Below, piece after piece: positions 6,615-44,102 of a DNA stretch of 63,990 nucleotides. Both the position numbers and the translations under genes were made by a program. The DNA lies in contig JAHECS010000018.1 of the NCBI GenBank assembly GCA_024641635.1, positions 1 to 63,990 on the forward strand. Reading direction: 5' to 3'. Under the pieces are notes generated by a model, which did no database searches, was not told the DNA's origin, and saw nothing but the letters and a program-made list of their open reading frames with translations. Every line of letters starts with the position of its first letter. Position 1 is the first letter of the stretch. Source of the DNA: Actinomycetes bacterium. Lineage in GTDB: Bacteria > Actinomycetota > Actinomycetes > S36-B12.

Positions 6615-7802
6615 ATGAGCGACCTCGACGTGGATCGCCTGAGGGCGGACACGCCCGGGTGCGCCCGGGTGGCGCACCTGAACAACGCCGGCTCGGCCCT
6701 TCCGCCCGCCGTCGTCACGGACACCGTGGTCGCGCACCTGCGTCGCGAGGAGGAGATCGGCGGCTACGAGGCCCAGACGGAGGCAGGCGAGCGGATCGAG
6801 GCGGTCCGTGCCTCCGCCGCAGCCCTGCTGGGAGCCCGGCCCGATCAGATCGCCCTCGTCGAGTCAGCCACGTCGGCCTGGACACGGGCGCTGCTCGCGA
6901 TCGCGCACACCCGGTCGATCAAGGCCGCCAACCGCATGCTCGTGTCCTCGGCCGAATACGCGTCCAACGTCCTGCCCCTCCTCCAGATCGCGCTCCGCAC
7001 GGGGGCGCACGTGGAGTTCATCCCTGATGACGCGTCCGGATGCGTCGACGTCGAGGCCTTCCGCAGCATGCTGGACGACGATGTCGCCATCGTCGCCATC
7101 ACGCACTGCCCCTCCCAGAACGGTCTCGTCAACGACGTGAACGGGATCGGGGCGATCCTCGACGGGACGGACGCCTGGTACCTCGTCGACGCGTGCCAGT
7201 CCGTCGGCCAGCTCCCCCTCGACGCCGTCGCCACCGGCGCGGACTTCATCTCGGCGACCGGCCGGAAGTACCTCCGCGGGCCACGCGGGACCGGCTTCCT
7301 GTGGGCGTCCGACACGGCGCTCGACGAGCTCGAGCCGTTCCCCCTGGATCTCCACTCGGCCACCTGGACGGCCGAGGGCTACGAGGTGCACGAGACGGCC
7401 CGGCGCTTCGAGTACTGGGAGAAGTCGTACGCGACGCTGCTGGGCATGGGCGCCGCCATCGACTACGCCCTCGACTGCGGGGTCGAGTCGCTGGCAGGGC
7501 GAATCGGCGAGCTCGCCCAGTACGCACGCGACGAGCTCACCCGCATCCCCGGCGTGCAGGTCCACGACCGGGGCGCGCAGCGCAGCGGCATCGTCACGCT
7601 CACCCGTGAGGGAGTGCCCGCCGCCTCGCTGGCTGCCCAGATCAAGGCGGCCGGTGTCAACGTGAGCCTGTCGACCCCCGACTACGCCCGCCACGACTTC
7701 GACGCCCACGGCCTCGACGGCCTCGTCCGGGTGAGTCCGCATGCGTACAACACCTCGGATGAGGTCGACCGGATGCTTGCGGCCGTCGCCGCGGCCGGCT
7801 GA
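6615..7802 (+). CDS. Class V aminotransferase / cysteine desulfurase-like PLP enzyme
   Basis: A 395-residue PLP-dependent enzyme of fold type I. Motifs include the N-terminal LNNAGSALPP, the cofactor-binding Asp in WYLVDACQSVGQ (D192) and the Schiff-base Lys in SATGRKYLRGPRGTGF (K218). This group includes cysteine desulfurases, selenocysteine lyases and hercynylcysteine sulfoxide lyase (EgtE). No other ergothioneine or Fe-S gene is adjacent, so the substrate stays open. The ATG at 6615 is preferred; the same frame is open far upstream opposite dnaG, which is not real coding. The gene stands alone, convergent with dgt. Confidence 0.85.
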   Translation: MSDLDVDRLRADTPGCARVAHLNNAGSALPPAVVTDTVVAHLRREEEIGGYEAQTEAGERIEAVRASAAALLGARPDQIALVESATSAWTRALLAIAHTRSIKAANRMLVSSAEYASNVLPLLQIALRTGAHVEFIPDDASGCVDVEAFRSMLDDDVAIVAITHCPSQNGLVNDVNGIGAILDGTDAWYLVDACQSVGQLPLDAVATGADFISATGRKYLRGPRGTGFLWASDTALDELEPFPLDLHSATWTAEGYEVHETARRFEYWEKSYATLLGMGAAIDYALDCGVESLAGRIGELAQYARDELTRIPGVQVHDRGAQRSGIVTLTREGVPAASLAAQIKAAGVNVSLSTPDYARHDFDAHGLDGLVRVSPHAYNTSDEVDRMLAAVAAAG

Positions 7803-7816
7803 ACCGGCCTTTCCCG

Positions 7817-9052
7817 TCAGCGCACGAGGCGGCGATGCCAGTCGAGGATGCTGACGTCGGTCAGGCTGGCGACCTGGTCGATGACGACTCGCAGCCGACC
7901 GGCGTCGTCCTCCGCCTCGTCGAATGACGGTCGCAGCCAGCGCTCGAGGGATCGCCCGGCGTCCAGGACGAGCGCGTTGACCAATTCCGCGATGACCTCA
8001 CGCTGACGTGCGTACTCGGCGTCTGCGCCGGGACGGTGCATCACGTAGAGCACCGCCACCGCCTTCATGACGGACACCTCCGCGCGCACCTCGTCCGGCA
8101 CCACGAGGTCGGCGGCGTACCGGGTGTGCGGGCCGGGGCCGTAGGCAACCTGGGTCGCGACCTGCGCCGTCGAGGAGAACCGGGCGATGAGGTAGCTCGT
8201 GAAGTGCTTGAGGGCCACGAGGTCCGTCATCGTCCCGTCGAAGCGCCGAGGCCAGTACTCCAGCGCCACCAGCCGGTCGAGGGCCGCCGCCAGCTCGGCC
8301 GGCTCCCCCTCGTCCGGGAACCGGCGGTGGGCCGTCTCCACCAGTGCGTGCCGTTCGCTCGGCGAGGCGAAGGCGTCCAGCGAGGCGATGCCGGAGTGGA
8401 TCGCATCCTCGAAGTCGTGCACCGAGTAGGCGACGTCGTCGGACCAGTCCATGACCTGCTCCTCGATGCACGTGCGCTCCTGCGGCGCGCCATCGCGCAG
8501 CCACGCGAACACCGGCAGGTCGTCCAGGTACGTGCCGAACTTCGGGGTTCCCTCCTTGCGCTCCCACGGGTACTTGCAGGAGGCGTCCAGCGAGGCCCGG
8601 CTCAGGTTGAGGCCGCGGCTGGCCCCCGTGACGGGGTCGACGACCTTGGCCTCGAGCCGCGTGAGGACCCGCAGCGACTGGGCGTTCCCCTCGAATCCGC
8701 CGATGCGGTCGGCGATCCTGTTCAGCTCCGATTCCCCGTTGTGGCCGTATGGCGGGTGCCCGAGGTCGTGCGCCAGACCGGCGACCTCGACGACGTCCGG
8801 ATCGCAGCCGAGGGCCTGCCCCAGCTCCCGGGCGATCTGCGCCACCTCGAGGGTGTGTGTCAGTCGAGTGCGGGGGAAGTCGGCCTCGCCAGCCACCATG
8901 ACCTGGGTCTTGGCCGCCAGCCGCCGCAGTGCCGCGGAGTGCAGCACCCGCGCCCGGTCGCGGGCGAAGGCCGTGCGCACGGACTCCTTGACCGGTTCGT
9001 CGACCTGCCGGGCGGTGTCGTGCTCGTCGTAGCCGGTGGGGATCGGGCTCAC
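7817..9052 (-). CDS. dgt: dGTP triphosphohydrolase-like HD protein
   Basis: Hydrolyses dNTPs to nucleosides and triphosphate, limiting the dNTP pool. HD-domain metal ligands are visible in RLTHTLEVAQIAR and AHDLGHPPYGHNGE, and the N-terminal FARDRARVLHSAALRRLAAKTQV is typical of dGTPase-like proteins. The GTG start at 9052 overlaps the stop of apbE (GTGA). Length is 411 residues. In Mycobacterium dgt and dnaG are also neighbours; here the aminotransferase gene lies between them. The actual nucleotide preference is not deducible. Confidence 0.92.
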   Translation of the reverse strand: MSPIPTGYDEHDTARQVDEPVKESVRTAFARDRARVLHSAALRRLAAKTQVMVAGEADFPRTRLTHTLEVAQIARELGQALGCDPDVVEVAGLAHDLGHPPYGHNGESELNRIADRIGGFEGNAQSLRVLTRLEAKVVDPVTGASRGLNLSRASLDASCKYPWERKEGTPKFGTYLDDLPVFAWLRDGAPQERTCIEEQVMDWSDDVAYSVHDFEDAIHSGIASLDAFASPSERHALVETAHRRFPDEGEPAELAAALDRLVALEYWPRRFDGTMTDLVALKHFTSYLIARFSSTAQVATQVAYGPGPHTRYAADLVVPDEVRAEVSVMKAVAVLYVMHRPGADAEYARQREVIAELVNALVLDAGRSLERWLRPSFDEAEDDAGRLRVVIDQVASLTDVSILDWHRRLVR

Positions 9053-9825
9053 GCAGCCGAGACTAGTGCGGCGTCGGACACCACCGATCCGTCGGTGCGG
9101 ACGACGACCGAGCGGTACCCCTCGTGTCCACGAACCCAGGCCATTCCCGGCTCGCCCATGGCGAACCCGATCGTCGCGTAGGCATCGGCCTCCGCGATGT
9201 CCGGACCGGTCACGGTGAAGGACGCGATATCCGGCTGCGTCGCGTCGGTGCCCCAGATGTGGTCGCCCCGCTCCCTGCGACCGGAGGTGGCGACGGCTCC
9301 GTCGACCATCGGGATCACGGCCGCGACCCGGTAGGCGCCGTGCGGATCCTGGACGGCCACCTGCCAGGGCCGGTCGCCGGTGGGAGAACCTGCCATGAAG
9401 GCATCGCCCCCCAGACCAAGGGCGAAGTTCTCCAGCCCGTGGCGACGCAGCTCGTCCGCGGCGCGACCGATCGCGTACCCCTTGACGTACCCAGCCGTGT
9501 CCAGGGCATGGGTCCGGGGATCGCGGGCCCGGAAGACACCGTCGGAGTCCCGGTGCAGGCGACCGCACTGGCGCAGGACGTGCTCGATGTCGGCGACGGC
9601 CGCAATGCTCACGTCCTCACCCGCGATCCACCGCGAGATGTCACTGTCGAGGCGATAGTGGCTGAACCGCTGCTCCAGCCGCTCGAGCAGGAGGCGGGCC
9701 TCGTGGAGCGCCTCATCGACGGCGTCCGAGCCGAGGCGATGCACGTCGCCGTCGGCCACCGCGATGCTGCCCACGGTGCCCATCACCGGGAACACGCGCC
9801 GGGCGCCGAGCCCCTGCGCGGTCAC
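9049..9825 (-). CDS. apbE: FAD:protein FMN transferase
   Basis: A 258-residue ApbE-family enzyme that moves FMN from FAD onto a Thr/Ser of target proteins. The fold is recognisable from FSHYRLDSDISRW, DTAGYVKGYAIGRAAD, FALGLGGDAFMAG, AVATSGRRERGDH and IAEADAYATIGFAMG, which include the FAD- and Mg-binding segments. It has no obvious lipobox, so it probably acts inside or through the membrane. The GTG at 9825 overlaps the stop of the FMN-binding protein gene (GTGA), which fits that protein being its substrate. Its own stop overlaps the dgt start. Confidence 0.93.
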   Translation of the reverse strand: MTAQGLGARRVFPVMGTVGSIAVADGDVHRLGSDAVDEALHEARLLLERLEQRFSHYRLDSDISRWIAGEDVSIAAVADIEHVLRQCGRLHRDSDGVFRARDPRTHALDTAGYVKGYAIGRAADELRRHGLENFALGLGGDAFMAGSPTGDRPWQVAVQDPHGAYRVAAVIPMVDGAVATSGRRERGDHIWGTDATQPDIASFTVTGPDIAEADAYATIGFAMGEPGMAWVRGHEGYRSVVVRTDGSVVSDAALVSAA

Positions 9826-10388
9826 AGCGAGTCCAGGATGGACTGCAGTGAGCGGGCGTACCCGTCGGACGTGTACGTCGCCCCGGACACGTAGTCGATC
9901 TGGGTGCCCTCCGAGGCGGTGGCTGACGAATCCAGACGCGGGATGGCGTAGGCGCTGATCATCTGCGATCGGCCGTCGCCCGTCGGCCAGTCCACCGCGT
10001 ACACCTCGCAGACCTGTGAGCCGGACACGGTCGCCGCCACCTGCACCGGCCCCCACCTGGTGGTGACGGAGTCGCCGGTGACGGTGTCGCCCGAGTCGCA
10101 CGACGCGGTGGTCGACTGACCCGTGGTCGACTGATCCGTGGTCGACTGATCCGCGGTCGACTGATCCGCGGTCGACTGACCCGCGGTCGACTGATCCGCG
10201 GTCGACTGATCCGCGGTCGACTGATCCGTGGTCGACGGGGCGGCCTGTGCCGCCGTCGCGTCGGCCGCCTGGCCGGTGGCCGTGGCCTCCGTGTGCCCGG
10301 CCAGGGCGGGGTCCGCGACGCCGACGATGACGATGGCGAGGCCGCCGAGTGCTGCAGCCGGTGCAAGACGTCGTGCCAGGCTTGCCAT
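9822..10388 (-). CDS. Secreted FMN-binding domain protein with repeat linker
   Basis: An exported electron carrier. It has a signal-like N-terminus (residues 1-30), a low-complexity linker of STADQ/STTDQ five-residue repeats (about 51-94), then an FMN-binding domain ending in DYVSGATYTSDGYARSLQSI. Thr171 in the SGAT motif is the expected site of covalent FMN attachment by the neighbouring ApbE. Two Cys (C97 and one in SGSQVCEVY) could form a disulfide. It lies just downstream of the ferric-reductase-like gene (1-bp gap) and overlaps apbE, giving a flavin-based electron-transfer unit. Confidence 0.9.
   Translation of the reverse strand: MASLARRLAPAAALGGLAIVIVGVADPALAGHTEATATGQAADATAAQAAPSTTDQSTADQSTADQSTAGQSTADQSTADQSTTDQSTTGQSTTASCDSGDTVTGDSVTTRWGPVQVAATVSGSQVCEVYAVDWPTGDGRSQMISAYAIPRLDSSATASEGTQIDYVSGATYTSDGYARSLQSILDSL
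10109..10237. repeat. 15-bp in-frame tandem repeat
   Basis: About 8.6 copies of a 15-bp unit (plus-strand form GGTCGACTGATCCGC with C/T and G/T variants), all inside the FMN-binding protein gene. They encode the STADQ/STTDQ linker. Copies are nearly identical, so length variation by slippage or recombination is likely between strains. Because the unit is five codons, gains or losses keep the frame. Confidence 0.95.
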
Positions 10389-10389
10389 C

Positions 10390-11814
10390 TCAGACTCCGA
10401 ATCTTTCGTGGTGGATGTGCCCGGTGGGCACGCCGGCCTTGCGCATGCCGGTCATGACGGCCGACTCCAGTGAGGCCGGGCCGCAGACGAACACGTGGCG
10501 GTCACGCAGGTCCGGGATCCACGCGCGCAGGGTCTCCGGGGCGAAGGGGTCAGGCCGGGTGAACCACTGCCGGGGTCCGGCCAGGACGTGCAGCGTGCCA
10601 CCGCGGGCGGCAACCATGCGCTCGAGCTCCGTTCGATGGGCCAGCTCCCGGTCGCTTCGGACGCGAACGATCACGACAGGCCGCTGCTCCGGCCGGCAGT
10701 CCTCGAGCAGCGCCCGGATCGGGGCGATGCCCACTCCTCCGGCTACGAGGACGACCGGGGCGCCGTTCGCACGATCGGCGGTGAACACGCCGTACGGCCC
10801 TTCGAGCACCAGGCGCGTGCCGGGTTCGAGGTCGAGCACGTTGGCCGAGTCCTCGCCGAGCTCCTTGATGGTGAACCGCAGACCTGCCGTCGTCGGGGCA
10901 GCCGAGACGGAGAACGGGTGCGCCTGCCACCACAGGTCCTTGGTCGCCGCCCGCACATTGAAGAACTGGCCGCCGGCCACCCGCAGCCGGCGCAGGCCCG
11001 GGCCGGACACGTGCAGCGAGCCGATCCCGTCCGCCTCCCGGGACACCGCCACCACGTAGAAGCGCCGCGACAGCGAACGGAGAAGGTCGCCGAGCCGTGC
11101 CTGCAGGATCAGGATGGCCGTGACCACGAACAGTGCGGTCCACCACCAGAAGGCCAGCGTGTCGGTAGCGAAGTCTGCACCGAGGGTTAGCTGGTGCCCG
11201 AACCCGAGCAGCACGGCCAGGTACCCGGTCAGGTGGACGAAGTACCAGGTCTCGTACGGGATCCGCTGTCGGAGGCGTCGCCACGACGACAGCCCGAGGA
11301 CGACCATGAGCGCGGTGGCGACCGTGGCGGCCACCATCCACGCCTGGTTGGCCAGCAGGTCGGTCAGCCCAGTGATGATCGTCCCCCCGGTGGCGGCACC
11401 CCACGCCCACGTGTCCGTCACGGCGTGCAGGAGGACCGTGACGACCGTGACGATGCCGAACCAGCGATGGGCGGCGAGGAGGCCGTCCTGCCCGTAGCGC
11501 CGCTCGAGCCAGCGGGGCCGCGAGGTCAGCACCAGGCCACCCAGGGCGGCGAGCGCGGCGACCAGCCCGGACAGCTGGCCGATGCCGGACAGCGTCCCGA
11601 CGCCGCCCTCCAGCAGCAGCGAGAGGCCACCGTGCTGCCACCACAGGCCGAGGGTCACGGCGGCGACGAACGACAGGACGGCGGTCAGGTCCCCCACCCT
11701 CAGACGGGAGGCCCGCGGACGGGGCAGGCGGCGAACCACCGGCTCCGAGCGCCAGGGCTCCTGGCTGATGGAGCGGCGCTGGCTGGTCGGGCGCCCTTGG
11801 CTGGTCAGGCTCAT
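10390..11814 (-). CDS. Ferric reductase-like transmembrane flavoprotein
   Basis: A membrane oxidoreductase that should pass electrons from NAD(P)H through FAD and heme across the membrane. The N-terminal half has about six helices with paired His that could bind heme (AHRWFGIV...LLHAV and YFVHLTGY...GFGHQ). The C-terminal half has the FAD-binding strand LHVSGPGLRRLRV, the NAD(P)-binding VAGGVGIAPIRALLED and the end motif HVFVCGPASLESAV. The ATG at 11814 is chosen; one at 11832 is also possible. The genes that follow encode the FMN-binding protein and ApbE, so the likely acceptor is the extracytoplasmic flavoprotein. Confidence 0.88.
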   Translation of the reverse strand: MSLTSQGRPTSQRRSISQEPWRSEPVVRRLPRPRASRLRVGDLTAVLSFVAAVTLGLWWQHGGLSLLLEGGVGTLSGIGQLSGLVAALAALGGLVLTSRPRWLERRYGQDGLLAAHRWFGIVTVVTVLLHAVTDTWAWGAATGGTIITGLTDLLANQAWMVAATVATALMVVLGLSSWRRLRQRIPYETWYFVHLTGYLAVLLGFGHQLTLGADFATDTLAFWWWTALFVVTAILILQARLGDLLRSLSRRFYVVAVSREADGIGSLHVSGPGLRRLRVAGGQFFNVRAATKDLWWQAHPFSVSAAPTTAGLRFTIKELGEDSANVLDLEPGTRLVLEGPYGVFTADRANGAPVVLVAGGVGIAPIRALLEDCRPEQRPVVIVRVRSDRELAHRTELERMVAARGGTLHVLAGPRQWFTRPDPFAPETLRAWIPDLRDRHVFVCGPASLESAVMTGMRKAGVPTGHIHHERFGV

Positions 11815-11899
11815 GCCCTCATGCTGGACCATCCGACGACCCCGATCGGCCGGTGACGGGCCTGCCTAACGGGACCCGAACACAAGCCCAACGAAGGGG

Positions 11900-12469
11900 T
11901 TACGCGGCGGGGTCGGAACGGGGCGACTCCTCCAGGATCCGAGCGATGAGAGTGGCCAGCTCGATGGCGTCCGTGCCGCCGATGACGCGGGCCGCGATGC
12001 GCCCCTCGCGGTCGAGGATGACCGTGCTCGGCAGCGACGCCGGTGGGATACCCGGGATGGTGGCAAGGATCGCGCCATCGGGGTCCTCGATGCTCGGATA
12101 GGGCACGCCCAGCTCCTCGACGAAGGCCCGGGCGGCGGCGGGGTCGTCGGTCGTGTTCAGACCGACCACGGCCACGTCGGCAGGATCGCTGTCCTCTGCC
12201 AGGGCCACGAACGCGGGCATCTCCGCCCGGCAGGGTGGGCACCAGGATGCCCAGGCATTAAGGACGACGACGCGGCCGCGCAGGTCGGCGAGGTCCAGCG
12301 GATCGCCATCGAGGGTCGTGCCAGCGACGTCCAGGACCGCGTCGCGCTCCGAAGAGGCCACCGTGTCGACGCCGACGAGCGCGGATGCCGGCTGCTCACG
12401 ACCGCAGGCTCCGAGCAGGGACGGTACGAGGAGCAGCACGACGACGGCTGCGATCGTCCGTCGGGTCAC
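11900..12469 (-). CDS. TlpA/ResA-like thiol-disulfide lipoprotein
   Basis: A lipoprotein signal with lipobox LLGAC (Cys about residue 22) precedes a redoxin domain with active site NAWASWCPPCRAEMP and a cis-Pro region near IPGIPPASLPSTVIL. It should sit on the outer face of the membrane and reduce or exchange disulfides. Length is 189 residues, normal for the family. It is 9 bp downstream of the YdcF-like gene and upstream of the electron-transfer cassette. Whether it receives electrons from that cassette is inference. Confidence 0.9.
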   Translation of the reverse strand: MTRRTIAAVVVLLLVPSLLGACGREQPASALVGVDTVASSERDAVLDVAGTTLDGDPLDLADLRGRVVVLNAWASWCPPCRAEMPAFVALAEDSDPADVAVVGLNTTDDPAAARAFVEELGVPYPSIEDPDGAILATIPGIPPASLPSTVILDREGRIAARVIGGTDAIELATLIARILEESPRSDPAA

Positions 12470-12478
12470 CCGAGAATG

Positions 12479-13153
12479 CTAACTCGCGTGCACGACCTCG
12501 CTGACCGACCACCTCGTGACCAGGTGGTAGCGCAGGAGGGCGAGTGTCTCCCGGCCGACGTACTCCGATGTCAGCGCGGTCCCAGGCCCGACATCAGTCG
12601 GTGAGAGGTGCGCGTCCACCCCCAGTGCCGAGGCGGTGGCCTGGGCGCGGGCGGCATGCGCAGGGTCCGTCACGATCGTGGCCGCCGACCATCCGAGGTC
12701 GCGCATGACCCCCGCGACGACCTTCAGCGAGCCGACGGTGTCGGTCCCGGTCGCGAAGGCCACGACGTCGCTCGCGGGGACACCGTTGGCCATCAGCACG
12801 AACCGCTCGGCCGCGGCCTGCCGTCGCGGCCCCGTGACGATCACCACGGGGGCCACTCCGTCTCGGTAGAGGTCGGCCGCGTGCTCGAGCCGGGCGCGCA
12901 GGACGGGGGTGGCGTCACCCCAGTAGTGGGCTGGGTCGAGCACGACGATCGCCTGGGTCTGGGTGCGGTCGTCGAGCTGGGCGCTGAGCACGACCTGGAG
13001 GACGGCGCCGATGGGCAGCAGGAGCAGCACTCCGACGACCGCGGTGACGCCGACCGTGGCCACGCCGCGGGCCGTGCGGGGGACAGTGGCGGCCGCCGAA
13101 GCAGTCCGCGCCCTGACCCGCGCACCCGAGGAGGCGTAGGTCGGGGCGGTCAC
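12479..13153 (-). CDS. YdcF/DUF218 family protein
   Basis: A 224-residue protein with one N-terminal transmembrane segment (about residues 33-58) and a DUF218 domain. Signature parts are AIVVLDPAHYWGDATPVLRA, APVVIVTGPRRQA and TIVTDPAHAARAQATASALG. Relatives (ElyC, SanA) act in envelope integrity; the exact reaction is unsettled. It heads the minus-strand run that continues with the TlpA-like lipoprotein and the flavin electron-transfer genes. Confidence 0.85.
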   Translation of the reverse strand: MTAPTYASSGARVRARTASAAATVPRTARGVATVGVTAVVGVLLLLPIGAVLQVVLSAQLDDRTQTQAIVVLDPAHYWGDATPVLRARLEHAADLYRDGVAPVVIVTGPRRQAAAERFVLMANGVPASDVVAFATGTDTVGSLKVVAGVMRDLGWSAATIVTDPAHAARAQATASALGVDAHLSPTDVGPGTALTSEYVGRETLALLRYHLVTRWSVSEVVHAS

Positions 13154-13207
13154 GCCCCAATAGTCACATGAACCACATCAGTAACAGGGCTCCGACACCG
13201 CCCCCGA

Positions 13208-13275
13208 TTCGTTGAGTGCGGACTTGTTGGGCGAAATCCCCGGCCAGGGTGCCCAACAACCCCGCACTCAACGAA
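13208..13275. terminator. Long palindrome, family A (ppdK terminator)
   Basis: Two 25-bp arms, 13208-13232 and 13251-13275, complementary at 23 positions, separated by 18 bp. The arm reads TTCGTTGAGTGCGGACTTGT followed by TGGGC. It begins 3 bp past the ppdK stop codon, so it should act as terminator for ppdK although no T-run follows. A closely related palindrome is found at 44035-44102, so this belongs to a dispersed family. Confidence 0.8.
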
Positions 13276-13278
13276 GGG

Positions 13279-16017
13279 CTAGCGGGTGTCGCTGCGCCCG
13301 ACGTGCCGTGACAGGGAAGCCCGACCGGCCTCGAGCCGGGCCACCGGCACCCGGAACGGCGAGCAGGACACGTAGTCCAGCCCGACCTCGTCGAAGAAGT
13401 GGATCGACTCCGGGTCGCCGCCGTGCTCGCCGCAGACGCCGCAGTGCAGGTTGTGCCGCTTGGCACGACCCTTCTTGACCGCGATGCGCACGAGTTCGCC
13501 GACGCCCTCCCGGTCGATCGACTCGAACGGCGAGACGCCGAACACGCCCTTGTCCAGGTAGGCGGAGAAGAACGCCGCCTCGACGTCGTCGCGGCTGAAG
13601 CCCCACGTCGTCTGGGTGAGGTCGTTCGTGCCGAAGGAGAAGAACTCCGCAGCCTCGGCGATCTGGCCGGCCGTGAGGGCCGCTCGCGGCAGCTCGATCA
13701 TCGTCCCGATCGGGAACTTCAGCGTGCAGCCGTGGGCGTCCGCCACCTCCTTGAGGACGCCGGCGGCCTCGTCGATCACCAGCTCGAGCTCCTGGATGGA
13801 GCCGACGAGCGGCACCATGATCTCTGCTCGCGGGTCGCCGCCCATGCGCTGGCGGAAGCACGCGGCCTCGGCGATGGCTCGCACCTGAAGGGCGAACAGG
13901 CCCGGGAGCACGAGGCCCAGCCGCACGCCGCGCAGGCCGAGCATCGGGTTCTGCTCGTGCAGCCGGTTGACCGCCTGCAGCAGCCTCAGGTCGGCCTCGG
14001 CGGACTCTCCTCGCGCCTCCGCCACGGCCACCCGGACGGCAAGCTCGGTGAGGTCCGGCAGGAACTCGTGCAGCGGCGGATCGATGAGCCGGATGGTCAC
14101 GGGCAGGCCGTCCATCGCCTCGAGGATGCGGATGAAGTCCTTGCGCTGCAGCGGCAGCAGCGCATCCAGCGCCGCCTTCCGGTCCGCCTCCGAGTCGGCG
14201 AGGATCAGGCGCTCGACGTGCGTCTTCCGCTCGCCGAGGAACATGTGCTCCGTCCGCAGCAGGCCGATGCCCTGCGCCCCCATGTGGCGGGCGCGGGTGG
14301 CGTCCTCCGGGGTGTCCGCGTTCGCGCGGACACGCAGGCGGCGGGCACTGTCGGCATGCTTCATCAGGCGGTCGACGGCCCGGATGAGCTCCTGGGTCGG
14401 CTCGTCCGCACCCTCGAGTCCGGCCTCGAGGCCCGCCTCGAAGTACGTGACGATGGCGCTGGGCACGACGGGAACCTCGCCGAGGAACACCTCGCCCGAC
14501 GTTCCGTCGATCGAGACGACCTCACCCTCGGAGATCGTCTCCCCGGCCGACGTGATCATGAAGCGGCCCTTGGTGTCCACGTCGAGCGACTCGGCTCCGC
14601 AGACCGCCGTCTTGCCCATGCCGCGAGCCACGACGGCCGCGTGCGACGTCTTGCCGCCCCGGCTGGTCAGGATGCCGGCCGCCGCGATCATGCCCTCGAG
14701 GTCGTCGGGGTTCGTCTCGCGCCGGACGAGGATGACCTTGTCCCCGGCCGCGCTCCACTTCACCGCGGTGGCCGAGTCGAAGACGACGCGGCCGACGGCA
14801 GCACCCGGAGACGCGTTCATGCCCTTGGCGACGAGTTCGTGCTCGGCTCCGGCCGCGAAGCGCGGGAACATCAGCTGGCTGAGCTGGTGACCGCTCACGC
14901 GCATGAGGGCCTCGTCCATCGAGATGACGCCCTGATCGACCAGCTGCACGGCGATACGGAAGGCCGCACCCGCGGTGCGCTTGCCGACCCGCGTCTGCAG
15001 CATCCACAGCTTGCCGCGCTCGACGGTGAACTCGATGTCGCACAGATCGCGGTAGTGCAGCTCGAGGGTCTGCATGATGTCCATGAGCTGCTTGTACGAG
15101 TCCGGATCGCTCTTCTCGAGCTCCTGCAGCGGGCTCGCGTTGCGGATGCCGGCAACGACGTCCTCTCCCTGGGCGTCGGCGAGGTAGTCGCCGTAGACGC
15201 CGGGATGCCCGGTCCCGGGATCGCGAGTGAAGGCGACGCCGGTGCCCGAGCCCGGGCCGGCGTTGCCGAACGCCATCACCTGCACGTTCACGGCCGTCCC
15301 GAGCGTGTGCGGGATGCGCTCCTGGCGCCGGTAGAGGCGCGCCCGCTCGGTGTTCCAGGAGTGGAAGACGGAGCGGATGGCCAGGTCGAGCTGCTGGTAG
15401 GGATCCTGCGGGAACTCATGACCCGTGCCCTCACGCACGATCGACTTGTAGACGTCGACAAGGCGCTTGAGCGCCTCGACCGGCAGCTCGACGTCGGTGA
15501 CGACGCCGACGCTCTCCTTCATCTGCTCGAGCGCCTGCTCGAAGTCGGCTCCGTCGAGGCCGAGCACGGTCTTCCCGAACATCTGGATGAGCCGACGGTA
15601 GGAGTCCCAGGCGAAGTGGTCGTTGTGGGCGTGGCTGGCGAGCCCCGCCACGCTGGCATCGTTGAGTCCGATGTTGAGGACGGTCTCCATCATGCCCGGC
15701 ATCGAGAACCGCGCGCCCGAGCGGACCGACACCAGCAGGGGGAACTCCGGGTCGCCGAGCCGGCGCCCCATCTCCTCCTCCATCACCGCGACGTGCTCGG
15801 CGATCTGCGTCCGAAGGCCCTCAGGACCGTGCCCGTGCTCGAGGAAGTAGCGGCAGGCCTCCGTGGTGATGGTGAAGCCGGGGGGCACTGGCAGCCCCAT
15901 CCGGGTCATCTCGGCCAGGTTGGCGCCCTTCCCGCCGAGGAGGTCGACCTTGGATCGGTCACCCTGGGTGAAGGCGTACACGTAGGACGTTGCGGTGGAA
16001 GTAGAGGTCATGGTCAT
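13279..16017 (-). CDS. ppdK: Pyruvate, phosphate dikinase
   Basis: Interconverts pyruvate + ATP + Pi with PEP + AMP + PPi in central metabolism. The N-terminal ATP-grasp domain has LLGGKGANLAEM and SVRSGARFSMPGMMETVLN. The swivelling domain carries the phosphorylated His in GGKTSHAAVVARGMG (H459). The C-terminal TIM-barrel has FGTNDLTQTTWGFSRDD and the catalytic Cys in CGVCGEHGG. At 912 residues it is full length. The ATG at 16017 or one two codons later gives the usual start. Its upstream region carries a DevR-like palindrome and a long direct repeat. Confidence 0.96.
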   Translation of the reverse strand: MTMTSTSTATSYVYAFTQGDRSKVDLLGGKGANLAEMTRMGLPVPPGFTITTEACRYFLEHGHGPEGLRTQIAEHVAVMEEEMGRRLGDPEFPLLVSVRSGARFSMPGMMETVLNIGLNDASVAGLASHAHNDHFAWDSYRRLIQMFGKTVLGLDGADFEQALEQMKESVGVVTDVELPVEALKRLVDVYKSIVREGTGHEFPQDPYQQLDLAIRSVFHSWNTERARLYRRQERIPHTLGTAVNVQVMAFGNAGPGSGTGVAFTRDPGTGHPGVYGDYLADAQGEDVVAGIRNASPLQELEKSDPDSYKQLMDIMQTLELHYRDLCDIEFTVERGKLWMLQTRVGKRTAGAAFRIAVQLVDQGVISMDEALMRVSGHQLSQLMFPRFAAGAEHELVAKGMNASPGAAVGRVVFDSATAVKWSAAGDKVILVRRETNPDDLEGMIAAAGILTSRGGKTSHAAVVARGMGKTAVCGAESLDVDTKGRFMITSAGETISEGEVVSIDGTSGEVFLGEVPVVPSAIVTYFEAGLEAGLEGADEPTQELIRAVDRLMKHADSARRLRVRANADTPEDATRARHMGAQGIGLLRTEHMFLGERKTHVERLILADSEADRKAALDALLPLQRKDFIRILEAMDGLPVTIRLIDPPLHEFLPDLTELAVRVAVAEARGESAEADLRLLQAVNRLHEQNPMLGLRGVRLGLVLPGLFALQVRAIAEAACFRQRMGGDPRAEIMVPLVGSIQELELVIDEAAGVLKEVADAHGCTLKFPIGTMIELPRAALTAGQIAEAAEFFSFGTNDLTQTTWGFSRDDVEAAFFSAYLDKGVFGVSPFESIDREGVGELVRIAVKKGRAKRHNLHCGVCGEHGGDPESIHFFDEVGLDYVSCSPFRVPVARLEAGRASLSRHVGRSDTR

Positions 16018-16074: not shown

Positions 16075-16088
16075 TCGGCTGTGATCTC

Positions 16089-16197
16089 GGCCACGCGGGA
16101 GGAGTGAGCGCCAGCGAGCCCCGCACCCGCGCGGCCCATCCGCACGGCCACGCGGGAGGAGTGAGCGCCAGCGAGCCCCGCACCCGCGCGGCCCATC
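16089..16197. repeat. 52-bp perfect direct repeat between divergent genes
   Basis: A 52-bp sequence at 16089-16140 is repeated without mismatch at 16146-16197, with 5 bp between. It fills much of the space between the ppdK and VKOR starts, which are divergent, so it sits in the promoter region of both genes or of VKOR alone. No open frame in it looks like protein. Its GGAGTGAGCGCCAGCGAGC core recalls the repeat at the left edge of the window. Confidence 0.9.
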
Positions 16198-16248
16198 GAC
16201 GCGGCCGGGATGCGGCCGCCCAGGTGCGGACGTCGTAGGCTCCGTGCC

Positions 16249-16902
16249 ATGGCCACGACCGCCGAGGACCGGGACGTCGACGACGATCCACGCCCCGCCC
16301 CCTACGTGCCGGGGCCTGTCCGGTACCGGGGTGCCTACATCGAGATGCTCGTCTCCTCGCTGATCGGGCTCGTCGCGGCCCTGGTCCTCTCCGTCGAGGC
16401 ACTCGCGCTGGCCGAGAACCCCTTTGCCGATCTCGGCTGCAACATCAACTCCGTGCTCTCTTGCGGGACCGTGGGCGCCTCATGGCAGGCCAGCCTGCTG
16501 GGCTTCCCGAACGCCTACCTCGGCCTCATCGCCGAGCCGGTCGTGATCACGCTGTCGGTGGCCGCCCTCGGCGGGGTCCGATTCCCTCGGTGGTTCATGC
16601 TGTCGGCGCAGGTGGTCTACGCGATCGGCTTGGCGTTCGCGTTCTGGCTCTTCTACCAGTCCTACTTCGTGATCGGCGCCCTGTGCCCCTGGTGCCTCAC
16701 GATCACCGTGACGACCACGCTGGTCTTCATGAGCATGACCCGGATCAACATCCTGGAGAACAACTTCCGGCTGTCGGCCGACGCCTACCGGTCGATCGCC
16801 GGCTGGCTGCGCGTCGGAGCGGACACGCTCGGCGTCATCATCATCTTCGCGATCATGGCCGGCATGATCCTGATCAAGTACGGCAGCGCGCTGTTCGGCT
16901 GA
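16249..16902 (+). CDS. Vitamin K epoxide reductase (VKOR)-like membrane oxidase
   Basis: An integral membrane enzyme that re-oxidises a DsbA-type partner and passes electrons to menaquinone, supporting disulfide formation outside the cell. It has four to five helices, the loop Cys pair C64/C72 (LGCNINSVLSCG) and the active-site pair C146/C149 (CPWC). Length is 217 residues. It has no fused thioredoxin domain, so a separate partner is needed. The start codon at 16249 is clear. It is convergent with the RibD-like gene, with a shared terminator hairpin. Confidence 0.92.
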   Translation: MATTAEDRDVDDDPRPAPYVPGPVRYRGAYIEMLVSSLIGLVAALVLSVEALALAENPFADLGCNINSVLSCGTVGASWQASLLGFPNAYLGLIAEPVVITLSVAALGGVRFPRWFMLSAQVVYAIGLAFAFWLFYQSYFVIGALCPWCLTITVTTTLVFMSMTRINILENNFRLSADAYRSIAGWLRVGADTLGVIIIFAIMAGMILIKYGSALFG

Positions 16903-44034: not shown

Positions 44035-44102
44035 TTCGTTGAGTGCGGAGTTGTTGGCCGTTCGGGGACCCCGAATCGGCCAACAACTCCGCACTCAACG
44101 AA
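44035..44102. terminator. Long palindrome, family A (lepA terminator)
   Basis: Arms 44035-44067 and 44069-44102 are nearly perfect reverse complements (one inserted base), beginning TTCGTTGAGTGCGGAGTTGT. Shares its arm with the palindrome at 13208-13275. It lies 7 bp after the lepA stop and 11 bp before the hemW start, filling nearly the whole gap, so it should terminate lepA and covers the place where a hemW ribosome-binding site would be. Confidence 0.8.

Follow-up and report, generated by a model that had tools for sequence, protein, structure and literature searches.

The DNA analysed here, referred to below as the window, is the whole 63,990-nucleotide stretch, one 64-kb contig of a 3.06-Mb genome in 82 contigs. 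It contains a trio of genes for a flavocytochrome, an FMN carrier and the FMN transferase ApbE, which is quite likely an actinobacterial MsrQ-like flavinylation system that would pass electrons from NAD(P)H to the FMN of an external carrier, with ApbE acting in the cytosol. The oddest feature of the locus, absent from an earlier note on this DNA, is that ApbE has no signal peptide. This creates a sharp and testable conflict: the carrier is predicted to lie outside the cell, whereas the transferase that should load it is predicted to lie inside.

Organization of the locus

The genes are transcribed from the minus strand, starting with a DUF218 protein (12479-13153) and a TlpA/ResA-like thiol-disulfide lipoprotein with an LLGAC lipobox and a WCPPC motif (11900-12469; PF00578, 81.1 bits). 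Then come the MsrQ-like flavocytochrome (10390-11832; PF01794, 68.2 bits, with PF08022 and PF00175), the FMN carrier, composed of a hydrophobic N-terminal segment, a low-complexity linker and an FMN_bind domain with an SGAT site (9822-10388; PF04205), ApbE, which starts at a GTG (9049-9825; PF02424, 112.3 bits), and dgt, encoding a dGTP triphosphohydrolase (7817-9052; NF002829, 569.6 bits against a cut-off of 385). The flavocytochrome and carrier genes are 1 bp apart, the carrier gene and apbE overlap by GTGA, and so do apbE and dgt. Domains and spacing thus confirm that a ferric-reductase-like protein, an SGAT-bearing FMN protein and ApbE are contiguous and coupled, as the earlier note had claimed. 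That note also had a TlpA-like thiol lipoprotein preceding the trio; the gene, its lipobox and its WCPPC motif are indeed there, but 67 bp separate its end from the flavocytochrome start, so that the two are not tightly coupled. All four genes it listed exist, although the range given for them, 9835-12469, ends just before ApbE. A promoter and terminator scan upstream, with sigma-70 as the only consensus, returned no match.

Other elements occur nearby. Between dnaG and dgt, the opposite strand carries a gene for an EgtE/SufS-like PLP enzyme (6678-7802), and a disulfide-forming membrane protein of the VKOR type is encoded upstream (16225-16902). Between the genes for pyruvate phosphate dikinase and VKOR lies a perfect 57-bp tandem repeat of 1.9 copies (16088-16197). 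A long palindromic hairpin is present at 13211-13272, downstream of the pyruvate phosphate dikinase gene, and again at 44038-44099. The region around the first copy (13195-13290) folds as RNA at -62 kcal/mol (z -6.6), and the half-site has 22 forward and 21 reverse copies in the source genome, against 0 and 0 for the control; this is a dispersed palindromic element or a repeated terminator.

A conserved trio predicted to export electrons

At a threshold of E 1e-3, 34 of 59 relatives have a match to the flavocytochrome, the weak ones being partial and falling in the reductase domain; at E 1e-40, 68 of 148 genomes from the class have one. We assembled 102 loci, namely 100 stretches chosen from the match lists, the window and locus L056; G077:C64, G192 and an additional place in each of G163, G173 and G182 were left out. 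Flavocytochrome, FMN protein and ApbE are all present in 83 of these 102 loci, a count in which some genomes contribute two or three loci, kinship is ignored and some stretches stop at a contig end. ApbE is missing from 11 loci, seven have the flavocytochrome alone and one (L056) lacks the FMN protein. The trio is a real and well-conserved system of a known kind, predicted to export electrons, and the window provides one more example of a system common in actinobacteria.

The source genome has further related genes. On contig C18 (L044, 8904-12108) there is a second flavocytochrome and FMN carrier pair; an ApbE gene lies there on the other strand, and a gene for a DoxX-Rieske fusion follows closely downstream. 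On contig C35 (L056), a third ApbE, with a full-length Pfam match and also without a signal, neighbours a short ferric-reductase-like protein (27.9 bits, cut-off 28) and an apparent response regulator.

In the flavocytochrome, a four-histidine membrane domain (Ferric_reduct) is fused to an FAD/NAD(P)H domain (FAD_binding_8 and NAD_binding_1, the latter, PF00175, at 32.7 bits for a cut-off of 22). We aligned 102 homologues, each longer than 330 amino acids: H122 and H136 are invariant (101/101), as are H200 and H213 (102/102), and the FAD/NAD domain largely retains its motifs HPFSVS, GGVG and CGP. The two conserved-histidine heme sites of the MsrQ-like class are thus predicted in this protein. 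Its best sequence matches among solved structures are the 8qt6/8qq7 chains (FAD-binding FR-type, E 1.6e-9), presumably SpNOX, the matched stretch covering part of the membrane domain and the FAD/NAD domain. None of the ten neighbouring proteins scanned is an MsrP molybdopterin reductase.

From the gene order, the domains, the heme and FAD/NAD motifs, the SGAT site, the N-terminal segment and the signal-less ApbE, all read directly in the sequence, we infer a direction of electron flow, a covalent FMN, an anchored carrier, a cytosolic flavinylation step and a set of candidate acceptors. Electrons from NAD(P)H would enter the flavocytochrome through FAD on its cytosolic C-terminal domain and cross to the outer membrane face via two b hemes, held by His122/136/200/213. 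There the hemes would reduce the FMN bonded covalently to the carrier at Thr171. The carrier, with its N-terminal segment as membrane anchor, would swing on its low-complexity linker towards an external acceptor such as ferric iron, a quinone-like molecule, oxygen or an envelope protein. The FMN itself would be moved from FAD onto Thr171 by ApbE, most likely in the cytosol, ahead of the carrier's export or while it is under way; we place this step there because ApbE has no export signal. The earlier proposal of a flavinylated extracytosolic electron-transfer layout is supported, and it matches the published MsrQ-like class.

Could the system instead be an enzyme of the NADPH-oxidase or ferric-reductase kind, with superoxide, peroxide or ferrous iron as its product and the FMN carrier as the final catalyst? 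The sequence similarity to 8qt6/8qq7 would fit, oxygen can serve as electron acceptor for reduced SaFMN3 (PMC10339131), and some MsrQ-like clusters include VIT1 iron transporters (PMC8238504). However, no iron transporter was found among the ten neighbouring proteins scanned, and the path of electrons would be the same as in the scheme above, so that this alternative differs in the acceptor only. We regard it as a tentative possibility.

ApbE has no export signal

In the window ApbE, 14 residues precede the MGT motif; the N-terminal hydropathy (KD15) is 0.61, and the protein shows neither a signal peptide nor a lipobox. Throughout, signal peptides were judged by hydrophobicity, with a mean hydropathy of 1.6 or more as the cut-off, and not by a trained predictor. 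In the 76 cases where ApbE directly follows the FMN gene, the FMN stop codon and the ApbE core are separated by 10-262 nucleotides (median 44), and not one of these ApbEs has a hydrophobic N-terminus when read from its own start codon. A single region between FMN stop and ApbE (L037) reaches the cut-off, but upstream of the start codon. Eight further ApbEs are located elsewhere; none of the seven readable ones reaches the cut-off, the eighth (L044) being counted as unreadable for a run of N at its N-terminus. A weak ApbE fragment, the second piece in L159, was left out of the locus counts.

We looked for all ApbEs in 23 genomes and found at least one in 22 of them (none was found in G184). Among the 30 ApbE loci read, with ATG and GTG as the only starts considered, none has a hydrophobic segment after the start; in L180, a segment of 1.76 lies upstream of the only ATG or GTG. 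In 11 of the 23 genomes (G069, G082, G100, G117, G131, G146, G166, G168, G183, G185 and G195), the only ApbE gene found is the signal-less one at the flavocytochrome locus. The hydropathy measure can detect signals, since 22 of the 30 best-scoring ApbE loci from a phylum-wide search, all from other classes, score as having a hydrophobic N-terminal segment; this control was read from the most upstream ATG, whereas cluster ApbEs were bounded by the FMN stop, so the two readings are not identical, and a misreading of the motif shortened some control N-termini. Signal-less ApbEs also accompany the carriers of L142, L138 and L131, which show up to 86% identity with SaFMN3-D2. Among the cluster ApbEs, to which that at 9049-9825 belongs, most have a Pfam match that is split and skips roughly profile positions 75-124, and we therefore consider that they form a shorter type of ApbE.

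ApbE is usually described as a secreted lipoprotein, and characterised ApbEs are mostly secreted (PMC12052999); the transferase for SaFMN3 was likewise assumed to be extracellular (PMC10339131). Cytosolic ApbEs as such have a precedent in Klebsiella, where one that lacks a signal peptide has a soluble enzyme as its target (PMC12052999); the novelty would be a cytosolic ApbE that serves an exported carrier. We found no report of one in the literature on ApbE, flavinylation, Tat and MsrQ-like systems, a search whose coverage left out most subscription journals, and no discussion of where ApbE resides in MsrQ-like clusters in the portions of PMC8238504 and PMC10979944 available to us.

Given the lack of an export signal on ApbE, the carrier probably receives its FMN in the cytosol, either before it is exported or in the course of export. 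For the class as a whole, we lean slightly towards the same view, that a signal-less ApbE installs the flavin inside the cell and that a holo-carrier, or a flavinylated nascent chain, then crosses the membrane. Alternatively, ApbE may act outside after being exported without a recognisable signal, for instance carried along with its substrate, and flavinylation would then be extracytosolic, as it is in other bacteria. The mostly secreted nature of characterised ApbEs speaks for this. Against it stand the absence of a signal in all 76 adjoining and all seven further readable ApbEs, and the short spacing behind the FMN gene, which leaves little room for one; we hold external action to be unlikely. 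An extracytosolic ApbE needs a source of extracytosolic FAD, as described in Listeria (PMC9973259), and actinobacterial genomes with a signal-less ApbE may show how bacteria avoid this need.

The FMN carrier and its export

The carrier has a single PF04205 stretch (28.5 bits, cut-off 22), where multi-flavinylated proteins would have at least two FMN domains. Its SGAT occupies residues 168-171 in the context DYVSGATY, which fits DxxSGAT and makes Thr171 the predicted flavin site. The FMN domain matches PDB entry 8p2a at E 1.7e-20, with 52% identity over 86 amino acids. A structure predicted from four sequences had a mean pLDDT of 37.9 and was not used for fold search.

Judged by hydropathy, the window carrier has a hydrophobic N-terminal segment following RR (KD14 2.51). 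Such a segment is present in all 93 carriers directly behind a flavocytochrome (minimum 1.66), with starts chosen partly on hydrophobicity; no start was obtained for the FMN frames of L090 and L103. The pair [KR]R precedes the membrane segment in 77/93 carriers vs 11/29 control ORFs, and the strict RRx[FLIVM][LIVM] motif in 26/93 vs 2/29, the control being small and rough in both comparisons and kinship ignored. The hydrophobic segment may be either a cleaved signal or an uncleaved anchor: an AxA follows it in 27 of the 93 carriers; the window carrier has ALA-G, and several orthologues have no such site. The source genome encodes TatC, and Tat export of a holo-carrier is possible but weakly supported by the sequences; alternatively, an unfolded nascent chain might be flavinylated before export by Sec. 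Twin-arginine export is not established as a general rule, as only 26 carriers have the strict motif.

The linker is encoded by a 15-bp tandem repeat (10110-10236; 8.5 copies, 95% matches) giving about eight STADQ/STTDQ-like units. It had been singled out as unusually long, yet its length, about 72 amino acids, is ordinary: linkers of the 93 carriers range from 3 to 173 amino acids (median 53), and 61 are shorter. Their composition is dominated by S/T/A/G/P/Q (mean 0.81), with little charge (mean 0.10), and the sequence varies freely among orthologues: in the closest genomes, we found a QQGT-like repeat (L035), a Q/E-rich stretch (L034) or no repeat at all (L033, L036). We thus rejected the repeat as a special device; the linker is a variable low-complexity spacer, expanded in the window as a 15-bp repeat.

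In the 11 loci most similar to the window, where the flavocytochromes are 48-100% identical, the FMN proteins share a pair of cysteines, one just before the FMN domain and the other about 30 residues on (Cys97 and Cys127 in the window carrier). None of the 94 other FMN-protein frames has this pair, and 81 of them have no cysteine at all. The two cysteines could form a structural disulfide, and such a bond would speak for an FMN domain outside the cytosol.

An FMN domain facing the cytosol, with the whole system working on the inner side of the membrane, would explain a signal-less ApbE. The excess of [KR]R before the membrane segment favours the opposite orientation, N-terminus in and C-terminus out, even with its rough control, and the charge-poor linkers and the potential disulfide also argue against an inward domain, which we judge very improbable.

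TlpA and dgt as neighbours

The TlpA-like protein has a CxxC thioredoxin-like site (WCPPC) and, from the lipobox in its translation, a predicted membrane attachment; besides PF00578, the TlpA/ResA/DsbE models match below their curated NCBIfam cut-offs. A TlpA of this type occurs near the trio in only four of the 102 loci (the window, L033, L034 and L035), all from one genus. The four-gene order, which the earlier note had suggested searching for, was found in three of them, L033 having its TlpA inverted and about 7 kb from the trio, with a block of CtaG, COX2, COX1 and CopD in between. L035 has a similar block, here on the other side of TlpA (CtaG and COX2 by Pfam, the rest from the ORF list). 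These blocks are a caa3-like oxidase operon (L033 2721-9667, L035 9951-16994) of CtaG, a cupredoxin-like protein without a Pfam match, COX2, COX1 and CopD, which flanks TlpA on either side in two species and is absent at the corresponding place in the window. The best match of the L033 COX2 in the source genome is only 41% identical over 116 residues, so this oxidase copy seems absent there.

As TlpA of Bradyrhizobium reduces ScoI and COX II (PMC6696091), a role in oxidase maturation is the simpler reading, and TlpA is probably a neighbour in this genus rather than a part of the electron-export system. A four-gene thiol system, in which the FMN carrier would reduce TlpA and thereby disulfides outside the cell, fits the window, L034 and L035, where TlpA immediately precedes the trio in the same orientation, but is very improbable given this rarity, the oxidase genes beside TlpA in L033 and L035, the Bradyrhizobium precedent and three DsbD_TM matches in the source genome that could reduce TlpA instead. 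As for dgt, it adjoins apbE in seven of the 11 closest loci (the window and L033-L038). We set both aside as functional partners, and their company, presented earlier as part of an unusual system, appears incidental.

Comparison with known systems

The 8qt6/8qq7 chains and other NOX or ferric reductases differ from the window flavocytochrome, whose gene is coupled with those for an FMN carrier and ApbE. The locus also differs from MsrPQ methionine sulfoxide repair in having no MsrP among the ten window neighbours scanned. Its counterparts are the MsrQ-like flavinylation systems described by Meheust et al. in 2021, mostly in Actinobacteria (PMC8238504), for which Huang et al. modelled a complex in 2024 (PMC10979944). 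As in those systems, a PF01794 membrane protein with PF00175 is clustered in the window with an FMN-binding protein and apbE; the C-terminal PF00175 domain is present in 1437 of 1797 published MsrQ-like clusters (PMC8238504). Nothing differs in the core, the repeat linker and the TlpA and dgt neighbours being local to the window.

A relative of the carrier with a known structure is SaFMN3 from Streptomyces azureus, 8P2A being the crystal structure of its D2 domain with FMN bonded to a threonine (PMC10339131). The two proteins share the FMN domain, an N-terminal membrane segment and flexible linkers, but SaFMN3 has three FMN domains and the window protein one. If our reading is true, cytosolic loading would extend to SaFMN3-type proteins. 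In the Listeria FmnB/PplA system, an ApbE-type transferase similarly serves an extracytosolic flavoprotein, but FmnB works outside and needs exported flavin (PMC9973259), whereas the window ApbE has no export signal. Cytosolic flavinylation, if true, would be a second way to load extracytosolic flavoproteins which, unlike that of FmnB, needs no export of FAD.
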